DNA of 48,339 bases from Verrucomicrobiota bacterium (GTDB taxonomy: Bacteria; Verrucomicrobiota; Verrucomicrobiia; Limisphaerales; J093). The notes below the pieces were generated by a model, which saw nothing but the letters and a program-made list of their open reading frames with translations, ran no database searches and had not been told where the DNA came from. Within the stretch, counting starts at the first letter, position 1, and each line of letters begins with the position of its first letter. The DNA is taken from positions 1 to 48,339 of the forward strand of contig JAAYVR010000210.1 in the NCBI GenBank assembly GCA_012517065.1, read 5' to 3'. The translations under genes and the position numbers were made by a program. Shown piece by piece: positions 33,239-41,731 of the stretch.

Positions 33239-35113
33239 TCACCGGCGCACGACCCTCAACTTCAACCGTCCAAATCTCTCGAGCAATTCCCCCCTGTCCG
33301 CGTCCCTGTATCGATCCGGCAAATAACGCCGATCCGAACACGCTAGCACCGCAGCCAGTTCCTGCAGCTCCAACAAGTCCCTGTCCAACGGATCAATAAA
33401 CGAATCAACCGCTTCCTTCACATCTCCAACCTGAACGTCCTCGTCCCGCCCGGCCAACACCGCCCGCTCCTTCGCTCGAGTCAAAATCGCGTCCACGTCG
33501 CTCCCAGTCAATGGCCGTTCCCCAAGTTGATTCCGCACATACGATTCCACCTCGCCCGAAAACCCAATTTTCCGCGCTTTCGCTATTGTCTTGAACAACT
33601 CCACCACCTCGTCAGCGTTTTGCGCCGGAAACAACGGCACACACAGGCCAAACCTCCCCTGCCTCTTCATGTCTATCGCCAACAGGTCCGGACGCGACGT
33701 CATGGCAACCCACAATTCCCGGCCACGCAGCGTCGCATCCCCAATGTGCGCCGCAAACGCCGCAAACACACGCGTCGATACGCCACTATCACCCGCCTCC
33801 ATGTCACGGCTCCCAAAAACCGCGTCGGCCTCGTCCACAACAACTATCACCGGCCCCAGAGCCCGAATCGTCATCAAAATCCGCATCTGCTGCAGTTCAG
33901 TGTCGCCCACCCATTTCGATCTGAACTCTCCCAGTTCCATCACCGGCAATCCACATTCACTCGCAAAGCAATCTATCAGAAAAGACTTCCCAACCCCCAC
34001 TCTGCCCGGCACCAGCAAACCCCGCTCGAGCACGTCTCCTTTCCCGTTCTTGATCAGCCATGCCAACTCGCGCAGTTTCGCCTTCGCAGCCTTGTGCGTC
34101 GCAACCATGTCAAGCGTCACTCCCGGACGCGGGTCCTTGAATCGCACAAGCCCTTGGCAGTACTCCTCGATCAACCTTTTCTTGCCGGCGGCCACGTGCT
34201 CGGGCGTCACACGTGATCCGTTGCGCACCGCCTCGGCCAGCAAATGCTGTATCCGAACAAGATTCAACCCCGCCGTTCTCGCTGCCAACTGGTCCGCGCT
34301 CATGTCGCTCCACCGCTCCATGGGTTCGCCCCCGGCAACCTTCACTGGCCAGCCCGACCTCAGAAATCGAAGCCGCTCCTCCGCATCCGGCAGATCAATC
34401 TTCACCTGGGCAACGTGCGGGTTCTGCAGCAAATCCATGTGCAGCTCCGACGCAGACTCAGTTACAAGAAAAATCCCCACATCCAACCGCCGCAGTTCCT
34501 GTGACACCGCCCACTTCAGCAACGTCACCAACGCCATCCGCTCTTCCATGCTCGCCACCGCCTCTTCCTGCGCAGGAACAATCTTCTCCGGATACTCGAT
34601 CACCAGAGTCACACCCCGCGCGCCGCTGGCCCCTTCCGCGTAATGCATGAAAAATCTGCGCAACACCGGCACCAGTTTCACAAACTCGCGCGGTAACCCA
34701 ACGCTGTGATAACGTGTTCCCTCAACTTCATCGTAGATGGCGAGCCATTCAAAAAAACGCTTCTGCATCGTCCCATCCGCAAACGTCAGGCCATCACCCA
34801 AATCATAGAACATGAAAAAACCTCGCTCGGGAAAAAGACGCCGACGCAAAAACGCCTTGAGCGGCACGAACGTCAGCTCCCCTCCCTCAATCAGCGGAAA
34901 CAGGTCAAATATATTCCCGTGCAACACAAACATCGAATAGGTGCCGCTGTTCCACCGCCGCGCAAGTTCCAATGCCCACCCGCGCAACGGCAACCTGGTT
35001 GCCGAACCCGCCGAAACCGGCCTGTCCGAACCCTCCACTTTATCAGCCTTGGCCTTCTCCGGCACTTGTCGTCGCTTGCCACTCATCAGTTCAAACCCAC
35101 GTGGGCAACTCAC
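33239..35113 (-). CDS. AAA family ATPase, two-domain (Ycf46-like layout)
   Basis: The C-terminal AAA module is active-looking: P-loop PGRVGVGKS (369-377), pore loop KWVGD (W401-V402-G403), Walker B VIVVVDEAD (422-430), sensor TSRPD (472-476) and the arginine pair RQGRFG (484-489). The P-loop departs from the usual GPPGTGKT. The first half (about 45-330) has AAA-like spacing (LPDAEERLRFL, ARTAGLNLVRIQHLL) but no Walker A, so it is probably a degenerate AAA domain. The GTG at 35113 overlaps the upstream stop as GTGA and has AGGG seven bases before it; the ATG at 35086 is the alternative. It is the last gene of the vWA-PspA-ABC operon. Confidence 0.88.
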   Translation of the reverse strand: MSCPRGFELMSGKRRQVPEKAKADKVEGSDRPVSAGSATRLPLRGWALELARRWNSGTYSMFVLHGNIFDLFPLIEGGELTFVPLKAFLRRRLFPERGFFMFYDLGDGLTFADGTMQKRFFEWLAIYDEVEGTRYHSVGLPREFVKLVPVLRRFFMHYAEGASGARGVTLVIEYPEKIVPAQEEAVASMEERMALVTLLKWAVSQELRRLDVGIFLVTESASELHMDLLQNPHVAQVKIDLPDAEERLRFLRSGWPVKVAGGEPMERWSDMSADQLAARTAGLNLVRIQHLLAEAVRNGSRVTPEHVAAGKKRLIEEYCQGLVRFKDPRPGVTLDMVATHKAAKAKLRELAWLIKNGKGDVLERGLLVPGRVGVGKSFLIDCFASECGLPVMELGEFRSKWVGDTELQQMRILMTIRALGPVIVVVDEADAVFGSRDMEAGDSGVSTRVFAAFAAHIGDATLRGRELWVAMTSRPDLLAIDMKRQGRFGLCVPLFPAQNADEVVELFKTIAKARKIGFSGEVESYVRNQLGERPLTGSDVDAILTRAKERAVLAGRDEDVQVGDVKEAVDSFIDPLDRDLLELQELAAVLACSDRRYLPDRYRDADRGELLERFGRLKLRVVRR

Positions 35114-36090
35114 CGATACGCCCTGTTCTTTGCGCCATTCCGGGATTTGCCGCGCGTTGCATCCGGTTCTTCGCTGCCTTCGGCACCACCGGGCAACACC
35201 CCACCCACCGGCGGCTCAAAACCAATCCGCCGATCTGTCGCCGGCAGGTCGCCAACCAAATCCCTGAACTCGTCCATTTCAGCCAGCCACTTGTTTGTCT
35301 GATCCAGATGCTCCACCGTCGCATCTATCCTCGCAGTCAACACACTGGCGTTCTTCAGCGCCACAGCGTCAGCGCGAATGAGTTTGATTTGCTGATCCAG
35401 CCGGTCCTGCTCCGATCTCACCAGCGCCAGGTTTTCACGCGCTTGACTTATCCGCTCAAGCCGTTTCCTCAACACTTCCACCCGGTCAGCACACGATCCC
35501 ACCAAACGCTGGCGCGCCTCGACAGCGCCCGTCGCGCCTCGCGCTTTCAATTCGTCCACTTCCCTCTGCAACCTCTCCAACTCCTCTTCGGCTGCCCTCA
35601 ACAACCCCGGCACGTCTTCCCGCCGCTCGGCGTCCAAATAGCGCTCCAACGATTCTTCGATGCTCAGCAACCTCAAATAGGTCCACATCAGCTCGTCAAG
35701 CTTGCGCAAACGCGGATCATCTCCAGCCCCGCCAAGCGAACTGTCCGTCGTTGCCGTCTCGATCCCGCGACATACCGCGGCAAGTTCCATGTACCGCTTG
35801 CGCCTTTCCGGTGTCAAATTGGCCAGCAACGAATCGCGTCTCCGAACGAACTCCGCTATCGCACGGCTCTCCTCCGCACGTTTTCTCTCCTCTTGACGCC
35901 GTTCGACCCACCGCCGGAAAAACGCCATGTCCGGCAAATAAAGCCAACCCAGCGCATACGCCCCTGCGCCGACCATCAACGCGACCGGATGCGCAATCAC
36001 AAATCCAGCCCCCAAAGTGAGTATCCCCAACCATATGTGGTGTGGACTGCGCCAAAACTCGCGCCTTAAACTGGGCTGCTGGTCATCCAT
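35110..36090 (-). CDS. membrane-anchored coiled-coil protein
   Basis: I do not recognise a named family. The ATG at 36090 (MDDQQPSLRREFWRSP) gives 326 residues. Two adjacent hydrophobic segments near residues 18-55 (IWLGILTLGAGFVIAHPVAL, then MVGAGAYALGWLYLPDM) suggest a hairpin in the membrane. Residues 60-260 are charged and helical (RRQEERKRAEES, AEEELERLQREVDELKAR) and look like long coiled coils; a Gly/Pro-rich tail follows. Its stop overlaps the AAA start by four bases, so it is probably an adaptor or membrane anchor for that ATPase. Confidence 0.85.
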   Translation of the reverse strand: MDDQQPSLRREFWRSPHHIWLGILTLGAGFVIAHPVALMVGAGAYALGWLYLPDMAFFRRWVERRQEERKRAEESRAIAEFVRRRDSLLANLTPERRKRYMELAAVCRGIETATTDSSLGGAGDDPRLRKLDELMWTYLRLLSIEESLERYLDAERREDVPGLLRAAEEELERLQREVDELKARGATGAVEARQRLVGSCADRVEVLRKRLERISQARENLALVRSEQDRLDQQIKLIRADAVALKNASVLTARIDATVEHLDQTNKWLAEMDEFRDLVGDLPATDRRIGFEPPVGGVLPGGAEGSEEPDATRGKSRNGAKNRAYR

Positions 36091-36224
36091 TTCTCTAGGC
36101 AAAATCTATCATCCACGATCACACCAGGCACGGACAATCTTCAGCCAACACAGGCCAGAGCCCCAGAACCAATCCACCAACGTGCCCTCCATTGCCCCCA
36201 TCGAATCCGGCCCTCGAACAGTAT

Positions 36225-37094
36225 CTACCCCTTGACCCCGTTGAGCGCGCCTGTGGCAGGCGCATCGGCCTCGAGCCGGTGCAACAAGTCTTGTGTCATT
36301 TCCATGAACCACGGCTGCTTCCGCATAACTTCTGGTGGCACATCCGGGCGGGGAACCGACAAGACTTCAACCAATCTCCCTGGCTTGGCTGCCATCCGAA
36401 AAACGCGGTCACCTAAATAAACCGCTTCTTCCACCGCATGCGTCACAATGAAAACCGTGCTCTGCTGCTCGCGCCACAAGTCAATCAGCAACGCCTGCAT
36501 CTGCATGCGAATCTTCGGATCAAGAGCGCCAAACGGCTCGTCCATCAGCAGGATTCGAGGCTCCAAAATCAGCGTCGCTGCAATCGCCACTCGCTGCTGC
36601 ATCCCCCCGGACAACTCGTGCGGGTAGCTCCGTTCCGCACCTTCCAACCCGACCTTCTTCGCCCATTCTCGCGCCCGATCCAAACGCTCACGCCGGGACA
36701 CGCCCCTCAGCTTCAAGCCAAACGCAATGTTCTCCAACACGGTCAGGTGCGGCAAAAGCGAGTATTTCTGATCCACCACACCGCGGTCAGCGCCCGGTTT
36801 GCAGATCGGCTTTCCACACACAAAAACCTCACCTGCGGTTGGCGGAAAATGAGGTTCCAAACCAGCTATAATCCGCAAAACCGTGGATTTTCCACACCCC
36901 GACGGCCCAACAATCGCTATGAGTTCGCCACTCCCAGGCTCATCATGAACTGTGAATGTTACGTCCTGAATCGCCGTGCGCGCGTTGGGACCGCTCCCAA
37001 ACACTTTCGTAACGTTCCTAAACTTCACAAGTTCCGGAAGCTGGCCCGGACCTTTCTCCGCCGTTCCGCCGTTTTGTGTTTTGTTATCACTCAT
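36225..37094 (-). CDS. ABC transporter ATP-binding protein, NitT/TauT (SsuB) type
   Basis: The nucleotide-binding subunit of an importer. Walker A GPSGCGKST is at residues 63-71, the Q-loop in GVVDQKYSLLPHLTV, the signature LSGGMQQRVAIA, Walker B ILLMDEPFGALD and the switch histidine in FIVTHAVEEA. Sequence and neighbours fit the nitrate/sulfonate/taurine family. It has 289 residues, with about 20 unrelated residues at the N-terminus. It follows its permease by 39 bp. The substrate cannot be deduced from the sequence. Confidence 0.95.
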   Translation of the reverse strand: MSDNKTQNGGTAEKGPGQLPELVKFRNVTKVFGSGPNARTAIQDVTFTVHDEPGSGELIAIVGPSGCGKSTVLRIIAGLEPHFPPTAGEVFVCGKPICKPGADRGVVDQKYSLLPHLTVLENIAFGLKLRGVSRRERLDRAREWAKKVGLEGAERSYPHELSGGMQQRVAIAATLILEPRILLMDEPFGALDPKIRMQMQALLIDLWREQQSTVFIVTHAVEEAVYLGDRVFRMAAKPGRLVEVLSVPRPDVPPEVMRKQPWFMEMTQDLLHRLEADAPATGALNGVKG

Positions 37095-37133
37095 CTACGC
37101 ACGCTGCCAAAACCAGCGATCAATAAAAGATCG

Positions 37134-38000
37134 TCACGCCGCCCGCGTGTTCCGGTAAGGAAACAGTAAACGCCCGCCTGCCCGCCACAATTGATCGCAC
37201 GCCACTGCAATCAAAACTATCACAATGATCACAGCATAAAGTGACGCTGTGTGCCCGCGGCGTTCAGAAACCGAGATCAAATAACCCAAACCCTTCTCCG
37301 CATTCACTACTTCAGCCAGAATAATCCATCCCCAACCCACGCCGTACACACCGCGCAAATGATCCCATATGTCAGCAAGTGCCACGGGAAATATCACTTG
37401 CCATACCAATTGCCACTGCGTCGCTCCCTTCGTCACCGCAACATCCAAATACGCAGCCGGCACGTCCGAGATCGTCTTGATCACCAATGGCAGCAACGCC
37501 ACAAAACAGCCTATGAACAGAAACCCGTACTTCTGCACCTCCGTCAGCCCAAACCACGCAAGCGTAAGCGGAATGAAAACCACTATCGGTACATACGCCC
37601 CTATCAACGCAAGCGGACGGAAAAACGCCGCTACAGGCGGAAACGTCCCCATGTACACCCCAAGCGGCACAGCCACTATAACCGCCAGCACAAAACCAGT
37701 CGTCACACGCGTGAACGACGTCACCACGCTCCGCACCAGTCCCTGCTGAAAGTGAAGTGCAGGAAACGCCTTCAGCACCTCGATCGGACTCGGCAATATC
37801 AACGGCGCCAACAGCCGATCCTCAGGCTTCTCCCCGCGCGTCACAAACCACCAGCCTGTCAACAAAAGAACCACAAACGCAGCCGTAAGCATTACCGCCC
37901 TCGTCCGCGGCAAGTCGGCCCGAACACCCAAACGCCCCAGCCGCACTGCCAGCGTGACAAGCCCAACAAACACAAACGCAAACAGCAGAAAACCTGTCAT
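37134..38000 (-). CDS. ABC transporter permease, NitT/TauT (SsuC) type
   Basis: The 288-residue inner-membrane protein has about six to seven hydrophobic segments. The coupling (EAA-type) loop is at GATQWQLVWQVIFPVALADIW, about residues 192-212. Compared with SsuC-type permeases there is an additional N-terminal helix (GFLLFAFVFVGLVTLAV). It lies 80 bp after the binding-protein fusion and 39 bp before the ATPase. Residues LPSPIEVLKAFPAL are typical of this permease family. Confidence 0.95.
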   Translation of the reverse strand: MTGFLLFAFVFVGLVTLAVRLGRLGVRADLPRTRAVMLTAAFVVLLLTGWWFVTRGEKPEDRLLAPLILPSPIEVLKAFPALHFQQGLVRSVVTSFTRVTTGFVLAVIVAVPLGVYMGTFPPVAAFFRPLALIGAYVPIVVFIPLTLAWFGLTEVQKYGFLFIGCFVALLPLVIKTISDVPAAYLDVAVTKGATQWQLVWQVIFPVALADIWDHLRGVYGVGWGWIILAEVVNAEKGLGYLISVSERRGHTASLYAVIIVIVLIAVACDQLWRAGGRLLFPYRNTRAA

Positions 38001-38080
38001 ATAATGCCGTCAATCCGCCCGCTCAGACAAACAGTCAGGACTTCGCCGCGTTCGCATCGGTCAAGCGCCCAACCCGTCGG

Positions 38081-39841
38081 CTATTGGGTCTCCAACGGAA
38101 ACACCTTCACCTCCACACGCCTGTTCTTCCGGTTATGCTCAACGTTGCTGGGATCAGTGCACCCGGGCAACGGATTGTCCCATCCGTTGCCAATGACTTT
38201 AAACTTGTTCGGGTCAAATTTGTATTTCTCCATGATCGCTCTCCGCACCGCATCGGCCCTGTCATACGACAATTGTCTCACCAGGTCCGCCGGCACAAGC
38301 CCCTTCTTGCTCGCGTCCGCATTGCCCTCGATCACTATGTACGCGTTCCCAAATGACCCCGCTAGTTTCCCAATCTCCTCCAACGTCTGCGGAATGCTCG
38401 GATCGTACTCAGCATTCAACACAGCGCTGTTCGGCTGGAATTGAATGATCACCGCCTTCGTCAATATCTCCCCTGTGTCCGCCTCTGCCAGCTTGAACGC
38501 CATGCCCGGCTTGAAGGTCGGCTGCGACAGGTCACGCACATCCCGATACTCATCAGCCATCTTGGCCAAAATGCCCGCCGCTTTGACCTTCGCCGACGGC
38601 ACAGGCGCAGATATCGCACCGAGCGACTTGTAGATCGTGGATGCCCGATTCCAAATCACCTCGAAGTTCGCAGGATTCATCGGGTCAAGGAAAAAGTTCG
38701 CGTTCTCACGGTAATTGGTCAGATGCGCGTCCCCATCCACTATCCCGCCATCTTTTCCTATCATCTTCTCACAGTCTTCCACAGGCAAACTGAATGCCTC
38801 TGCCAACAACCGCGCTGCTGCCTTTGGATCTTTGCGCACCCTGTCCATACCCTCAAATATCCCGCGCACCAGATTCGCCACAATGTCAGGATGATCCCTG
38901 TAAAAGTCGTTCCGCACCGCCCATACGTCTGCAATCAGGTGATTGGCGCTCTCGGTGCTCACAACCAGCCGCGCCCCGGGCAGTTGCTCCGCCACCGTAT
39001 AAATGTCAGGCGCCCACCCGACAAACGCATCAAATGTCTTGTCCTGAACGAATATCTTTGCCGCCGCAGGCGCGTCAGCCGCCCACTTGAAATCGACTTC
39101 GGCAGGGTCTATCCCCGCATCAATCAACAATGACATGATGAAGTAATGGCTCGGGGAGTTCTGTGCCAACACAACCTTCCGCCTCTGACCGCCTTTCATC
39201 CGGAAATCGTTGATCGATCTTATGTCGCCCCGGGAAACAACACCATCGCCACCGTCCGACCAGTCAATCTGCTGACAAACAACCGGCACCGTGCGCGAAT
39301 CCTTCACCAGCTCGGGCGCAAACAACGCTATCATGTCAAGTGTCCCCCAAAGCACATGGCTGTGCCCGCTCGCAAACAGGTCCCGCGCCTTCACTGGATC
39401 ATCCACAATCGAAAGTTGGAGATAAAACCCGTACTTCTGATAAAAAATGCTCCCCGCATTGGCCGCCATGCCGTTGTTCGCAACTATGATCGGTGCCCAA
39501 CCGGGCCAGACATTGATCGGAAACTGAACCACCAGCTTCCCATCTCTCATCGGACTGTCATAGTCACTCACGCCCGTGACAGGCGGAATTGCCGATCCAT
39601 CCACCAACGAAACCGCCTTGTCGCCCGCCAGCAACTGTTTTGTGATGTCCACGTCCTGCCGCGGTTGTTGCTGCTGCTGTTGCTGCTGTTGCGTCTTCAG
39701 CGACTCCTTAACCGCCTTCACGTCCACCGACGGCGTTGACGGCTTCGCCGGCGGCGCAATCTTGTCTTTCCACCGGTAAGCTCCAAACCCGACCAACACC
39801 AGAATCAGTATCGTCAGTACTATCTTTCCTTTTGTTGTCAT
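38081..39841 (-). CDS. NitT/TauT-type substrate-binding protein fused to an OmpA-like domain
   Basis: The 586-residue protein has an N-terminal membrane anchor or uncleaved signal (IVLTILILVLVGFGAY, about 7-22), a nine-glutamine run near residue 52, and a periplasmic binding domain of the NMT1/SsuA kind (about 100-400; ASGHSHVLWGTLDMIA, LIDAGIDPAEVDFKWA). An OmpA-like peptidoglycan-binding domain follows (about 455-580; IQFQPNSAVLN, IVIEGNADAS, LSYDRADAVRRAI, HNRKNRRVEVKVF). So the ligand-binding part should be tied both to the membrane and to the cell wall. It follows the PspA-like gene by 34 bp and precedes the permease. Confidence 0.92.
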   Translation of the reverse strand: MTTKGKIVLTILILVLVGFGAYRWKDKIAPPAKPSTPSVDVKAVKESLKTQQQQQQQQQPRQDVDITKQLLAGDKAVSLVDGSAIPPVTGVSDYDSPMRDGKLVVQFPINVWPGWAPIIVANNGMAANAGSIFYQKYGFYLQLSIVDDPVKARDLFASGHSHVLWGTLDMIALFAPELVKDSRTVPVVCQQIDWSDGGDGVVSRGDIRSINDFRMKGGQRRKVVLAQNSPSHYFIMSLLIDAGIDPAEVDFKWAADAPAAAKIFVQDKTFDAFVGWAPDIYTVAEQLPGARLVVSTESANHLIADVWAVRNDFYRDHPDIVANLVRGIFEGMDRVRKDPKAAARLLAEAFSLPVEDCEKMIGKDGGIVDGDAHLTNYRENANFFLDPMNPANFEVIWNRASTIYKSLGAISAPVPSAKVKAAGILAKMADEYRDVRDLSQPTFKPGMAFKLAEADTGEILTKAVIIQFQPNSAVLNAEYDPSIPQTLEEIGKLAGSFGNAYIVIEGNADASKKGLVPADLVRQLSYDRADAVRRAIMEKYKFDPNKFKVIGNGWDNPLPGCTDPSNVEHNRKNRRVEVKVFPLETQ

Positions 39842-39875
39842 GGCTCGTTCCCTTCCAAATCACCAACAGATTGAT

Positions 39876-40631
39876 TCACTCTGCGATTTTCTGGCGCTCC
39901 TCCTTCGCAGGAGCAGGCGCAGCAGGTGCCGACGCCTCCGCCTGCACCATCCCCATCTTCTTCTTGTACTCTTCAAACAGCATCTTCCCGCGCGCACGCC
40001 GCATCTCCTGCTGTCTCTGGATGTTCGACCCCATCTCTCGCGCAAGGTCAAGCGTCGCGCGCATCTGCCCCTCGCCCCGCGCGGCTGACTCGCGAAGCTG
40101 CTGCATCGACTGGCTCAGTTCGCCGCCCATCATCCCTTGCAGCTCCGTGATCGAGGTCTTCATCATCGACGCCAGGTTCTCCAAGGACCGACTGATGGCA
40201 ACACGCGCCTTCACAGCCTCAAACTCGCGCTGAAATTTCTGAATCTCCCGCAAGCTCTGAGCGATGATCTGCGTGTTCTGCTGATACAATTCTTCAAGGT
40301 TTTTGAGCTGCGCCTCGTTCTCTTTCAGGTCGCCCTCAAGCTCCGCCAACTGCTCAGCATAATGGGCGCCATTCGATTCATCATTGGCAGCCACTGCGGC
40401 CTGAAGCAGTCCTTCGAGTTCCTCCTTCTGGCGCACCTGGCGTTTCACCTGCTCTTTCAACAAAGCGATCTGGCTTGCCAATTGCCCGTTCGCATAATGC
40501 GCCTTGTCCGCCCGCGCCTTTGCATCCCGAATACCACGCTCGACAACGGCCTGATTTATCGCGTCGGTTTCCGTCGCTTTCTCGGCCATCAAACCCAGCC
40601 AGATAAACAATCGCTTGATCGCTCGAAACAT
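39876..40631 (-). CDS. PspA/IM30 family protein
   Basis: This 251-residue, almost entirely helical protein has an amphipathic N-terminus (MFRAIKRLFIWLGLMAEKATE) that could bind membrane, then long coiled-coil helices (LKEQVKRQVRQKEELEGLL, FQREFEAVKARVAISRSLENL), as in PspA/IM30, the ESCRT-III-like envelope-stress proteins. The tail is Ala/Pro-rich (ASAPAAPAPAKEE). It lies 17 bp after the vWA gene. It is divergent from PspA of E. coli; the membrane-repair role is inferred from family membership. Confidence 0.85.
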   Translation of the reverse strand: MFRAIKRLFIWLGLMAEKATETDAINQAVVERGIRDAKARADKAHYANGQLASQIALLKEQVKRQVRQKEELEGLLQAAVAANDESNGAHYAEQLAELEGDLKENEAQLKNLEELYQQNTQIIAQSLREIQKFQREFEAVKARVAISRSLENLASMMKTSITELQGMMGGELSQSMQQLRESAARGEGQMRATLDLAREMGSNIQRQQEMRRARGKMLFEEYKKKMGMVQAEASAPAAPAPAKEERQKIAE

Positions 40632-40648
40632 TGTGCTGCCTTTCTCTC

Positions 40649-41410
40649 TTACCGGTTATTGCCGTCTTTCTCCTTAACGCCAGCCGCTCCCTGCGGCTCT
40701 TCTTCTTCCAACAGTATCTTTTCCTTCAGAATCGAATTCAATTGCTCACCCAACTGACGTTCATCCGCTGCGCCCACAACTGTCGCGCCCAGTTTCTTCA
40801 CGCCCGAAAACAGGGCTGCGTTAACGTCAAACGCGATAAAATGATAGCCAACAAAAGTGTTCAGGTCCTCCATTTGCCTCTTCAGCGCCAACAACACCGC
40901 CACAGGCTCAGGACCCACGCTGTTTATCCCGTCGGTGATCACAAGCACATGTTTCCGGCTCAACGGCGAGTTCATAACACGCCGCGACGCCAGCCGAATC
41001 GATTCACCCAAAGGCGTTCCCCCGGACGGCAACTTAAAACCAGCCGCCCATTTCCGAATGTGAGCTGCATCAAACAATCCAAATCGAATTTGCTCCTGTG
41101 GCCGGCCGTTCTGAAAGGTTATCAGGCACATCGCCAGTTCGCGCTTCCCGCCCTCGCCAGACTTGACAAACGCATCAAGACGATCCGCCACCGATTCCAA
41201 TGCGCGTTTTGCGATCACGTACTTGGGCGATTGATTCCCGTCCTTGTCCTGCACGCTGTCCTTCATGCTGCCCGAGGTATCGAAAACAATGGCCAACGCG
41301 ATGCCCTCTCGACCCGGCACCGAAGTTCCACCGGCGAACCCTGCCAACGCAAAAGCAACAAGCGCTCCGAACAACCTCGCAAGGCTCCAAACTTCCATGG
41401 ACAGTCGCAT
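40649..41410 (-). CDS. secreted von Willebrand factor A domain protein
   Basis: The 253-residue protein has an N-terminal signal-like segment (LFGALVAFALAGFAGG, about 13-28) and a complete metal-binding site: DTSGSM at 44-49, Thr132 in SGGTPLGES and Asp160 in VITDGINS. It is thus able to bind a protein ligand through a metal ion, and should act outside the cytoplasm or as a tethered protein. The start at 41410 lies 24 bp after a promoter-like -10. It is the first gene of the operon. Confidence 0.9.
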   Translation of the reverse strand: MRLSMEVWSLARLFGALVAFALAGFAGGTSVPGREGIALAIVFDTSGSMKDSVQDKDGNQSPKYVIAKRALESVADRLDAFVKSGEGGKRELAMCLITFQNGRPQEQIRFGLFDAAHIRKWAAGFKLPSGGTPLGESIRLASRRVMNSPLSRKHVLVITDGINSVGPEPVAVLLALKRQMEDLNTFVGYHFIAFDVNAALFSGVKKLGATVVGAADERQLGEQLNSILKEKILLEEEEPQGAAGVKEKDGNNR

Positions 41411-41731
41411 AAAACGGTGGTGAAACTGGCAAGAGTCTAATCCTCAATGGCAGGCGCTGTCAAATGCCGCCGAGCCCGAATTCCACAGGTCTGTTTGCCC
41501 CGCAAAACAAGCACCCACACCAAGAATACCTTGTATTAATAAGGGTTTTGCAATTCACTTGACCGCCCCGCGCCTTCTGTCACCCGCCAGGTTACAAACA
41601 GAATCCCGAATTGTAAGTTTCGACTCGACGCAATTCCCAAGCCACTTCCATAACCGTCTCATGACGGTCAAGCCCATGGATTCCCAACCCCAATCCCCTG
41701 CCGACGAAATCTGCACTCTTACAGGCCCAGG
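41411..41731. other. gene-free gap between the vWA operon and the propeller gene
   Basis: It holds the promoter at 41434-41463 and a small ACCGTC/GACGGT hairpin (41653-41668) downstream of the propeller gene. No protein-like frame and no U-tract terminator are seen. Confidence 0.6.
41434..41463 (-). promoter_or_regulatory. sigma70-like promoter for the vWA-PspA-ABC-AAA operon
   Basis: On the minus strand a perfect TTGACA (41458-41463), an 18-bp spacer and TAGACT (41434-41439) lie just upstream of the first gene. The -10 resembles the TAGATT of the tuf promoter. The leader would be about 20 nt. Confidence 0.55.

Follow-up and report, generated by a model that had tools for sequence, protein, structure and literature searches.

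Operons that join PspA to a double AAA protein and to transport genes have been described by Ravi et al. (2024, mSystems; PMC11237479). According to the main text of that paper, PspA is encoded together with transmembrane (TM)-bearing Snf7 homologues and with double AAA proteins whose N-terminal copy is inactive, and longer operons add an ATP-binding cassette (ABC) ATPase, a permease and a PBPB-OmpA protein. Vps4-like, ATP-dependent membrane remodelling linked to solute transport was proposed there. The window analysed here, a stretch of 48,339 nucleotides from a Verrucomicrobiota bacterium (contig JAAYVR010000210.1), contains a seven-gene operon at 33239-41410 on the minus strand. The open reading frames (ORFs) encode, in order, a von Willebrand factor A (vWA) protein, a PspA-like protein, a solute-binding protein (SBP) fused to an OmpA domain (SBP-OmpA), a permease, an ABC ATPase, a two-TM coiled-coil protein and a double AAA ATPase. 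The operon is interpreted, with about even confidence, as a membrane-maintenance module of the Vps4/ESCRT-III type that spans the envelope and is controlled by a ligand sensor anchored to the wall, in which the importer is optional.

By comparison with the main text of Ravi et al., the window operon is a member of the kind described there and its core combination is already published. A PspA homologue, a double AAA with an inactive N-terminal domain, an ABC ATPase, a permease, an SBP-OmpA and a TM-bearing coiled-coil partner are common to both; the difference is that the window coiled coil has no significant Snf7 match. The original prediction had considered the coupling of PspA and AAA to a complete importer unfamiliar, a view overtaken by the 2024 paper. 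The present analysis adds the vWA and membrane coiled-coil proteins as regular members, a gene order that holds in two phyla, forms that are split or lack the importer, a TelA-bearing form from a Vibrio plasmid and subtype-specific PspA tails. The main text of the paper has no match for vWA or Willebrand, which may be listed in its supplements. By the terms searched, the same main text has nothing on TelA, Verrucomicrobiota, Acidobacteria, split forms, forms that lack the importer, or motifs in the PspA tail.

The classical Psp system (E. coli pspFABC) and Vipp1/IM30 share with the operon an ESCRT-III-like inner-membrane protein of the PspA superfamily. However, the operon has no PspB, PspC or PspF genes, the window PspA is far below canonical similarity, and the operon AAA is a CDC48/Vps4-like ATPase and not an enhancer-binding regulator. 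The ESCRT-III/Vps4 systems (archaeal CdvBC and eukaryotic Snf7/Vps4) also pair a filament-type helical-hairpin protein with an AAA ATPase, and the variable linker and conserved C-terminal tail of the operon PspA are analogous to MIM tails. They differ in that the operon AAA has a degenerate N-terminal half with no MIT found, and in the addition of a putative periplasmic sensor/transport half. NitT/TauT-type importers (TauABC, SsuABC, SaoXPA) have a homologous SBP, permease and ATPase, whereas the operon SBP is fused to a peptidoglycan-binding-type domain and the importer is dispensable in relatives.

A further cluster is found on the Vibrio alfacsensis plasmid pSEA2 (NZ_AP019851.1, 8965-17740; L044). 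It encodes an ABC ATPase, an SBP-OmpA, a vWA protein, a second SBP-OmpA, a TM coiled coil, TelA, a third SBP and a permease. The two SBP-OmpA proteins, the vWA protein, the TM coiled coil, the permease and the ABC ATPase are parts in common with operons of this kind; the difference is that TelA occupies the position taken by PspA in related operons, and the record yielded no AAA gene. Other Vibrio plasmids also carry related SBP-OmpA genes.

Conservation of the gene set and the importer-less forms

Gene orders were read from 57 loci (labelled L; genomes are labelled G) with family hidden Markov models. The type A order, vWA-PspA-SBP-OmpA-permease-ATPase-CC-AAA (CC, the coiled-coil gene), is found in the window and in L024, L027, L028, L050, L051 and L055, and L031 has the same order without vWA. 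It is also shown by L076 and L085 of a second phylum, which is probably Acidobacteriota. The type D order, SBP-OmpA1-vWA-SBP-OmpA2-TMcc-PspA-SBP3-permease-ATPase-AAA, is found in L037, L038, L040, L041, L053, L066, L067 and their relatives. In both phyla, CC and AAA either share a 4-bp overlap or lie almost end to end. The recurrence of the order across two phyla bears out the claim that the seven genes are one conserved cluster and not accidental neighbours.

The intact SBP-OmpA loci (n=42) contain a TM coiled coil (CC or TMcc) in 39 cases, permease and ATPase in 35, AAA in 34 and vWA in 26. When only loci found by SBP-OmpA alone are considered, AAA is in the same cluster in 25 of 32 intact loci. 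Long ORFs in L069, L072, L077, L078 and L082 were considered as permease-ATPase fusions and rejected; they are upstream reading-frame extensions with no permease match. The distribution of the operon is patchy: in the window's phylum 17 of 388 genomes have an SBP-OmpA profile match, and in the second phylum 38 of 396 do.

For all seven proteins, the pairwise distances are correlated with one another (r 0.82-0.97, with 0 of 999 permutations as high), which results partly from shared species history. Among 58 relatives a close AAA occurs in 9 genomes and an operon-type PspA in 11, including all 9. The Fisher test of this co-occurrence, which ignores phylogeny, gives p about 5e-9; when same-genus pairs are merged, p is 1.6e-7. 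The two genomes with PspA and no AAA are G007, where the match is truncated at the end of a contig, and G041, where the locus is damaged. In the latter (L128, G041:C89, 6221-8472) PspA and SBP-OmpA run together, the PspA tail and SBP anchor are missing, and the genome has no AAA. This is a decaying or misassembled locus, and G041 was rejected as a natural test of the PspA tail because of the damage or misassembly at the PspA/SBP junction.

The importer is optional. Permease and ATPase are absent from the cluster in L052 and L056 (type D) and L063 (type A), while the rest of the genes are kept. G025 and G047 have a split form, in which vWA-PspA-SBP-OmpA (L126, L125) and CC-AAA (L030, L029) occupy separate loci. 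No importer genes are present at either locus of these two genomes, the downstream absence being uncertain for L125, which ends at a contig end. G050 resembles this split form, on short contigs. A vWA gene near CC-AAA in L029 was considered as the operon vWA and rejected, as it encodes a BatA-type protein. In G080, G268 and G102 the closest other permease scores 170-188 bits, compared with 325-365 bits in operons, and comes from a separate importer with its own SBP; G247 has a separate importer besides the operon importer.

This separate SBP-permease-ATPase importer recurs in G102, G268, G080 and G247 (L096, L097, L098, L099). It is related to the third SBP, permease and ATPase of the operon.

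The PspA-like, coiled-coil and AAA proteins

The window PspA-like protein scores 20.9 bits against Pfam PspA_IM30, below the curated cut-off of 33.9. Since the direct match is under the cut-off, profile and fold evidence assigns the protein only as a divergent relative within the PspA/IM30 superfamily, and not as a canonical PspA. In profile-profile comparisons, type A PspA matches type C at 97.9%, type C matches canonical PspA at 97.1% and type D matches canonical PspA at 93.6%, while three unrelated coiled-coil controls (CC, TMcc and TelA) give 0.2-1.2%. The top match of the type D profile among PDB chains is Vipp1/PspA (E=5e-7). One operon relative (L084) has a canonical PspA in the PspA slot, with 66.3 bits in PspA_IM30, over the Pfam cut-off, and the PspA of a PspA-AAA pair (L035) reaches 39.8 bits. 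The AlphaFold2 model of the window protein (predicted local distance difference test, pLDDT, 72) has helices at 2-81 and 85-158, which form a hairpin, and short helices at 188-198 and 204-225. In a Foldseek search with this model, Vipp1/PspA accounts for most of the top 15 matches (E 0.02, probability 1.0), with the caveat that YscO ranked first and that a helical hairpin is a common shape. The operon gene is the sole PspA-family match in a genome-wide PF04012 search. The intermediate profiles, the predicted fold and the canonical PspA of L084 thus uphold the earlier identification of an ESCRT-III-like PspA relative.

The PspA architecture consists of the two-helix hairpin, two short helices, a variable Ala/Pro-rich linker and a short C-terminal tail. 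The type A tail is RQKI[A/S]E (RQKIAE in the window), with a mean entropy of 0.32 bits compared with 1.34 bits for the linker. Type D proteins have LPE in 9 of 9 cases and type C proteins have a GP motif, so that the tail motifs are constant inside each subtype and different between subtypes. Since ESCRT-III tails are read by Vps4, the AAA may by analogy be the likeliest reader of the PspA tail. Separately, L026 (G031:C365, 5142-8605) contains only the operon-type PspA and AAA of the operon set, with the tail kept. A 230-aa protein with no Pfam match takes the place of the vWA, SBP and importer genes there and may be another type of PspA partner.

The coiled-coil protein has an N-terminal membrane hairpin followed by a helical/coiled-coil domain that is probably cytosolic. 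AlphaFold2 predicts helices at 20-36, 39-58, 60-95, 130-162, 164-188, 191-249 and 252-275 (pLDDT 81). No significant match to a Pfam family or a known fold was obtained. The idea that it is an ESCRT-III/PspA relative gained no support, as profile and fold comparisons gave no significant Snf7 or PspA match. A profile match of 58% is only suggestive of a relationship between CC and the TMcc of type D operons.

The two-part AAA ATPase noted in the original prediction is confirmed. The C-terminal domain appears active, with Walker A GRVGVGKS and Walker B VIVVVDEAD. The N-terminal half is a degenerate, inactive domain with an LHGNIFD motif (conserved GN..D) that is conserved across 18 homologues (alignment A2), and Walker A is absent from it in 18 of 18. 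The nearest NCBIfam models are CDC48, PAN and CdvC. Double-AAA homologues with 25-28% identity are also found on large plasmids of the Gram-positive Brevibacillus, Aneurinibacillus and Paenibacillus (L045, L046, L047), with no other operon genes near them.

The vWA, SBP-OmpA and importer proteins and the operon layout

The vWA protein has a hydrophobic N-terminal segment (residues 7-28) followed by the vWA domain. A motif check found the metal ion-dependent adhesion site (MIDAS) complete, with D44-T-S-G-S, TPL and T159-D-G. Since several homologues (L027, L028, L044, L055, L085) have a lipobox, the domain is probably periplasmic. Of the secreted, metal-dependent adhesion domain predicted earlier, the hydrophobic N-terminus and the MIDAS residues agree, but adhesion exceeds the evidence; a periplasmic protein-protein role fits equally well.

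The SBP-OmpA has an N-terminal anchor (1-25), a polyQ linker, a NitT/TauT-type solute-binding domain (about 105-400) and an OmpA domain (468-571). The solute-binding domain is of the NMT1/SsuA kind, with a score under the Pfam NMT1 cut-off and a TIGR03427 match of E=2e-11. Profile comparison with PDB gives Omp38 (3td3, E=2e-10) and TauA (6ssy, E=6e-8), with SsuA also near. The C-terminal domain matches Pfam OmpA (E=4e-10) and contains the motifs G506-N-A-D509 and L524-S-x-x-R528-A. The OmpA-family Asp and Arg (D509 and R528) are invariant in alignment A1, which supports the prediction of a binding protein tied to peptidoglycan. The polyQ run differs by one residue from that of a same-genus homologue (L024) and may be variable in length.

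The SBP, permease and ATPase are all of the NitT/TauT class. The permease scores 108.6 bits against TauC (family curated cut-off 342), the ATPase 218.5 bits against TauB (cut-off 357) and the SBP 43.5 bits against the urea SBP family (cut-off 333.9). No operon importer subunit reaches the curated cut-off of any named nutrient-importer family. Walker A, the LSGGM signature, Walker B, the D-loop and the H-loop of the ATPase are all intact.

The seven genes (Table 1) run in the same direction with short gaps and one GTGA overlap, as first described. The gaps from vWA to the coiled coil are 17, 34, 80, 39 and 122 bp. The coiled-coil and AAA genes share the 4-bp GTGA overlap, the AAA start being a GTG inside the coiled-coil stop region. 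A single promoter for the operon is plausible from the sequence. The candidate site upstream of vWA is the sole near-consensus sigma-70-like site in the direction of the operon, which agrees with the earlier proposal of one promoter, but the total number of promoter-like matches (2 observed compared with 3.0 expected in shuffled sequence) is not above chance. Downstream of the operon are a YbjN-like gene, tRNA-Thr and EF-Tu, and upstream is a PQQ-type beta-propeller gene. The genome containing the window has 5.26 Mb in 298 contigs. Positions 1-248, at the extreme contig end, are a tandem repeat with a 104-bp unit, 2.4 copies and 97% matches.

Table 1. Coordinates of the operon genes and the candidate promoter within the window, with the basis of each assignment.
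Feature	Position	Strand	Length	Basis and remarks
vWA protein, exported	40649..41410	-	253 aa	Pfam VWA E=4e-7 and motif check
PspA/IM30-superfamily protein, divergent	39876..40631	-	251 aa	Sub-threshold Pfam, profile-profile, AlphaFold2/Foldseek, tail conservation
SBP-OmpA fusion	38081..39841	-	586 aa	Pfam/NCBIfam, profile against PDB, OmpA motifs
ABC permease, TauC/SsuC-like	37134..38000	-	288 aa	BPD_transp_1 E=1e-14
ABC ATPase, TauB-like	36225..37094	-	289 aa	Domain match and catalytic motifs
Membrane coiled-coil protein	35110..36102	-	330 aa	AlphaFold2 helices; TTG start, ATG 4 codons later
Double AAA ATPase	33239..35113	-	624 aa	Pfam AAA E=1e-15 at 367-489
Promoter-like site TTGACA-18-TAGACT	41434..41463	-		Sigma-70-like consensus, 10/12; ends 24 bp upstream of vWA start

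Possible function of the operon

In the membrane-maintenance interpretation, the membrane-anchored, peptidoglycan-bound SBP-OmpA and the metal-dependent vWA would sense a ligand or periplasmic conditions from outside, and envelope stress may be the trigger. In the window's lineage, the NitT/TauT-type permease and ATPase would transmit the binding event to the cytosolic side. Inside, the PspA-like ESCRT-III relative would assemble on the inner membrane and the coiled-coil protein would recruit the AAA ATPase to it. The AAA would then act on this assembly in the manner of Vps4 on ESCRT-III, remodelling or disassembling it, probably through contact with the conserved C-terminal tail of PspA. What the sequences establish is the set of genes, their conservation and co-inheritance, the identity of the domains and the importer being optional; the mechanism is inferred.

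The importer-less relatives provide the best argument that the system does not revolve around the importer, although a sensor role for it does not follow. The original prediction had suggested that the importer may be a sensor and not a nutrient pump. Since permease and ATPase are missing from relatives that keep SBP-OmpA, vWA, PspA, the coiled coil and AAA (L052, L056, L063, G025 and G047), the part of this claim stating that it is not primarily a pump gains weight.

Several results weigh against the membrane-maintenance interpretation. Since 35 of the 42 loci have the importer, and its catalytic motifs are intact, it probably transports in most hosts. Type A PspA has no direct profile match to canonical PspA (2.2%), and the window protein is sub-threshold in Pfam. 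The AAA has no Pfam match to an MIT domain. In L077 and L078 the SBP-OmpA, importer and coiled coil are retained but AAA is missing, and L058 has SBP-OmpA and importer only. G041, the sole near-complete genome with PspA and no AAA, neither tests nor supports the idea of a tail read by the AAA.

A rival explanation is that the operon encodes an ordinary importer for sulfonate, urea or a similar solute, with SBP-OmpA tethering the binding protein to the wall and PspA and AAA acting as chaperones of the membrane or transporter. The importer has its full complement of SBP, permease and ATPase with intact motifs, most loci retain it, type D operons add a third binding protein (ureaSBP), and the importer genes of L058 stand with SBP-OmpA alone. 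However, the five importer-less cases named above have lost permease and ATPase and kept the rest, and all components score below the curated cut-offs of named nutrient-importer families. In addition, no substrate-pathway metabolic gene was noticed beside the operon, where no systematic survey was made. An ordinary importer is possible, though on the whole rather unlikely. The TelA in the pSEA2 cluster, which otherwise has the same parts, suggests a metal or toxic-anion stress system with TelA/Ter-like logic, in which vWA and SBP would bind a toxic ion or antimicrobial while PspA/AAA (or TelA) protects the membrane. Listeria TelA mutants are reported to be more sensitive to nisin and tellurite (PMC12791056), which is in line with such a role. 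This explanation is doubtful, since no TelA is present in the Verrucomicrobiota or second-phylum loci examined closely, the profile similarity of TelA to PspA is 0.2%, and the Vibrio example comes from a single plasmid family.

Anti-phage defence systems often contain AAA ATPases and membrane proteins, and in PADLOC the AAA matched IetA (25.8 bits) and the ABC ATPase matched mad3/mad8. Such matches reflect generic ATPase domains, PADLOC gave nothing for the remaining five proteins, and phage records give only weak AAA-domain matches with no close AAA homologues. A defence function was thus rejected for want of support from PADLOC and phage-record searches, and is very improbable. Smaller sets do occur, such as SBP-OmpA alone (L061, L064), SBP-OmpA with the coiled coil (L062) and PspA-AAA pairs (L026, L033-L035), and might suggest that unrelated genes cluster here by chance or by position only. 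This is refuted by the conserved gene order, since the same set and order are found in two phyla, and the co-occurrence even when split into two loci and the correlated divergence also oppose it; it is hardly credible.

The membrane-maintenance interpretation can be extended to a bacterial ESCRT-III/Vps4 analogue under transmembrane control, in which the wall-tethered SBP and vWA would gate an AAA that recognises the subtype-specific PspA tail and the importer would be a signal transducer and not a pump. This extension is tentative and, as it stands, unlikely. If it is true, this would be, to our knowledge, the first case of a bacterial PspA that has its own disassembly ATPase and for which an extracytoplasmic input is identified.

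A 2024 structural study of PspA notes that PspF is not essential to PspA remodelling and suggested that chaperones or PspF might act as Vps4 (PMC11746142). The operon bears on this turnover of bacterial PspA/Vipp1 polymers, as it pairs a PspA relative with its own AAA, and the conserved tail offers a testable handle. By comparison with the importer-less relatives, the possible role of an ABC importer in sensing for membrane remodelling can be addressed.

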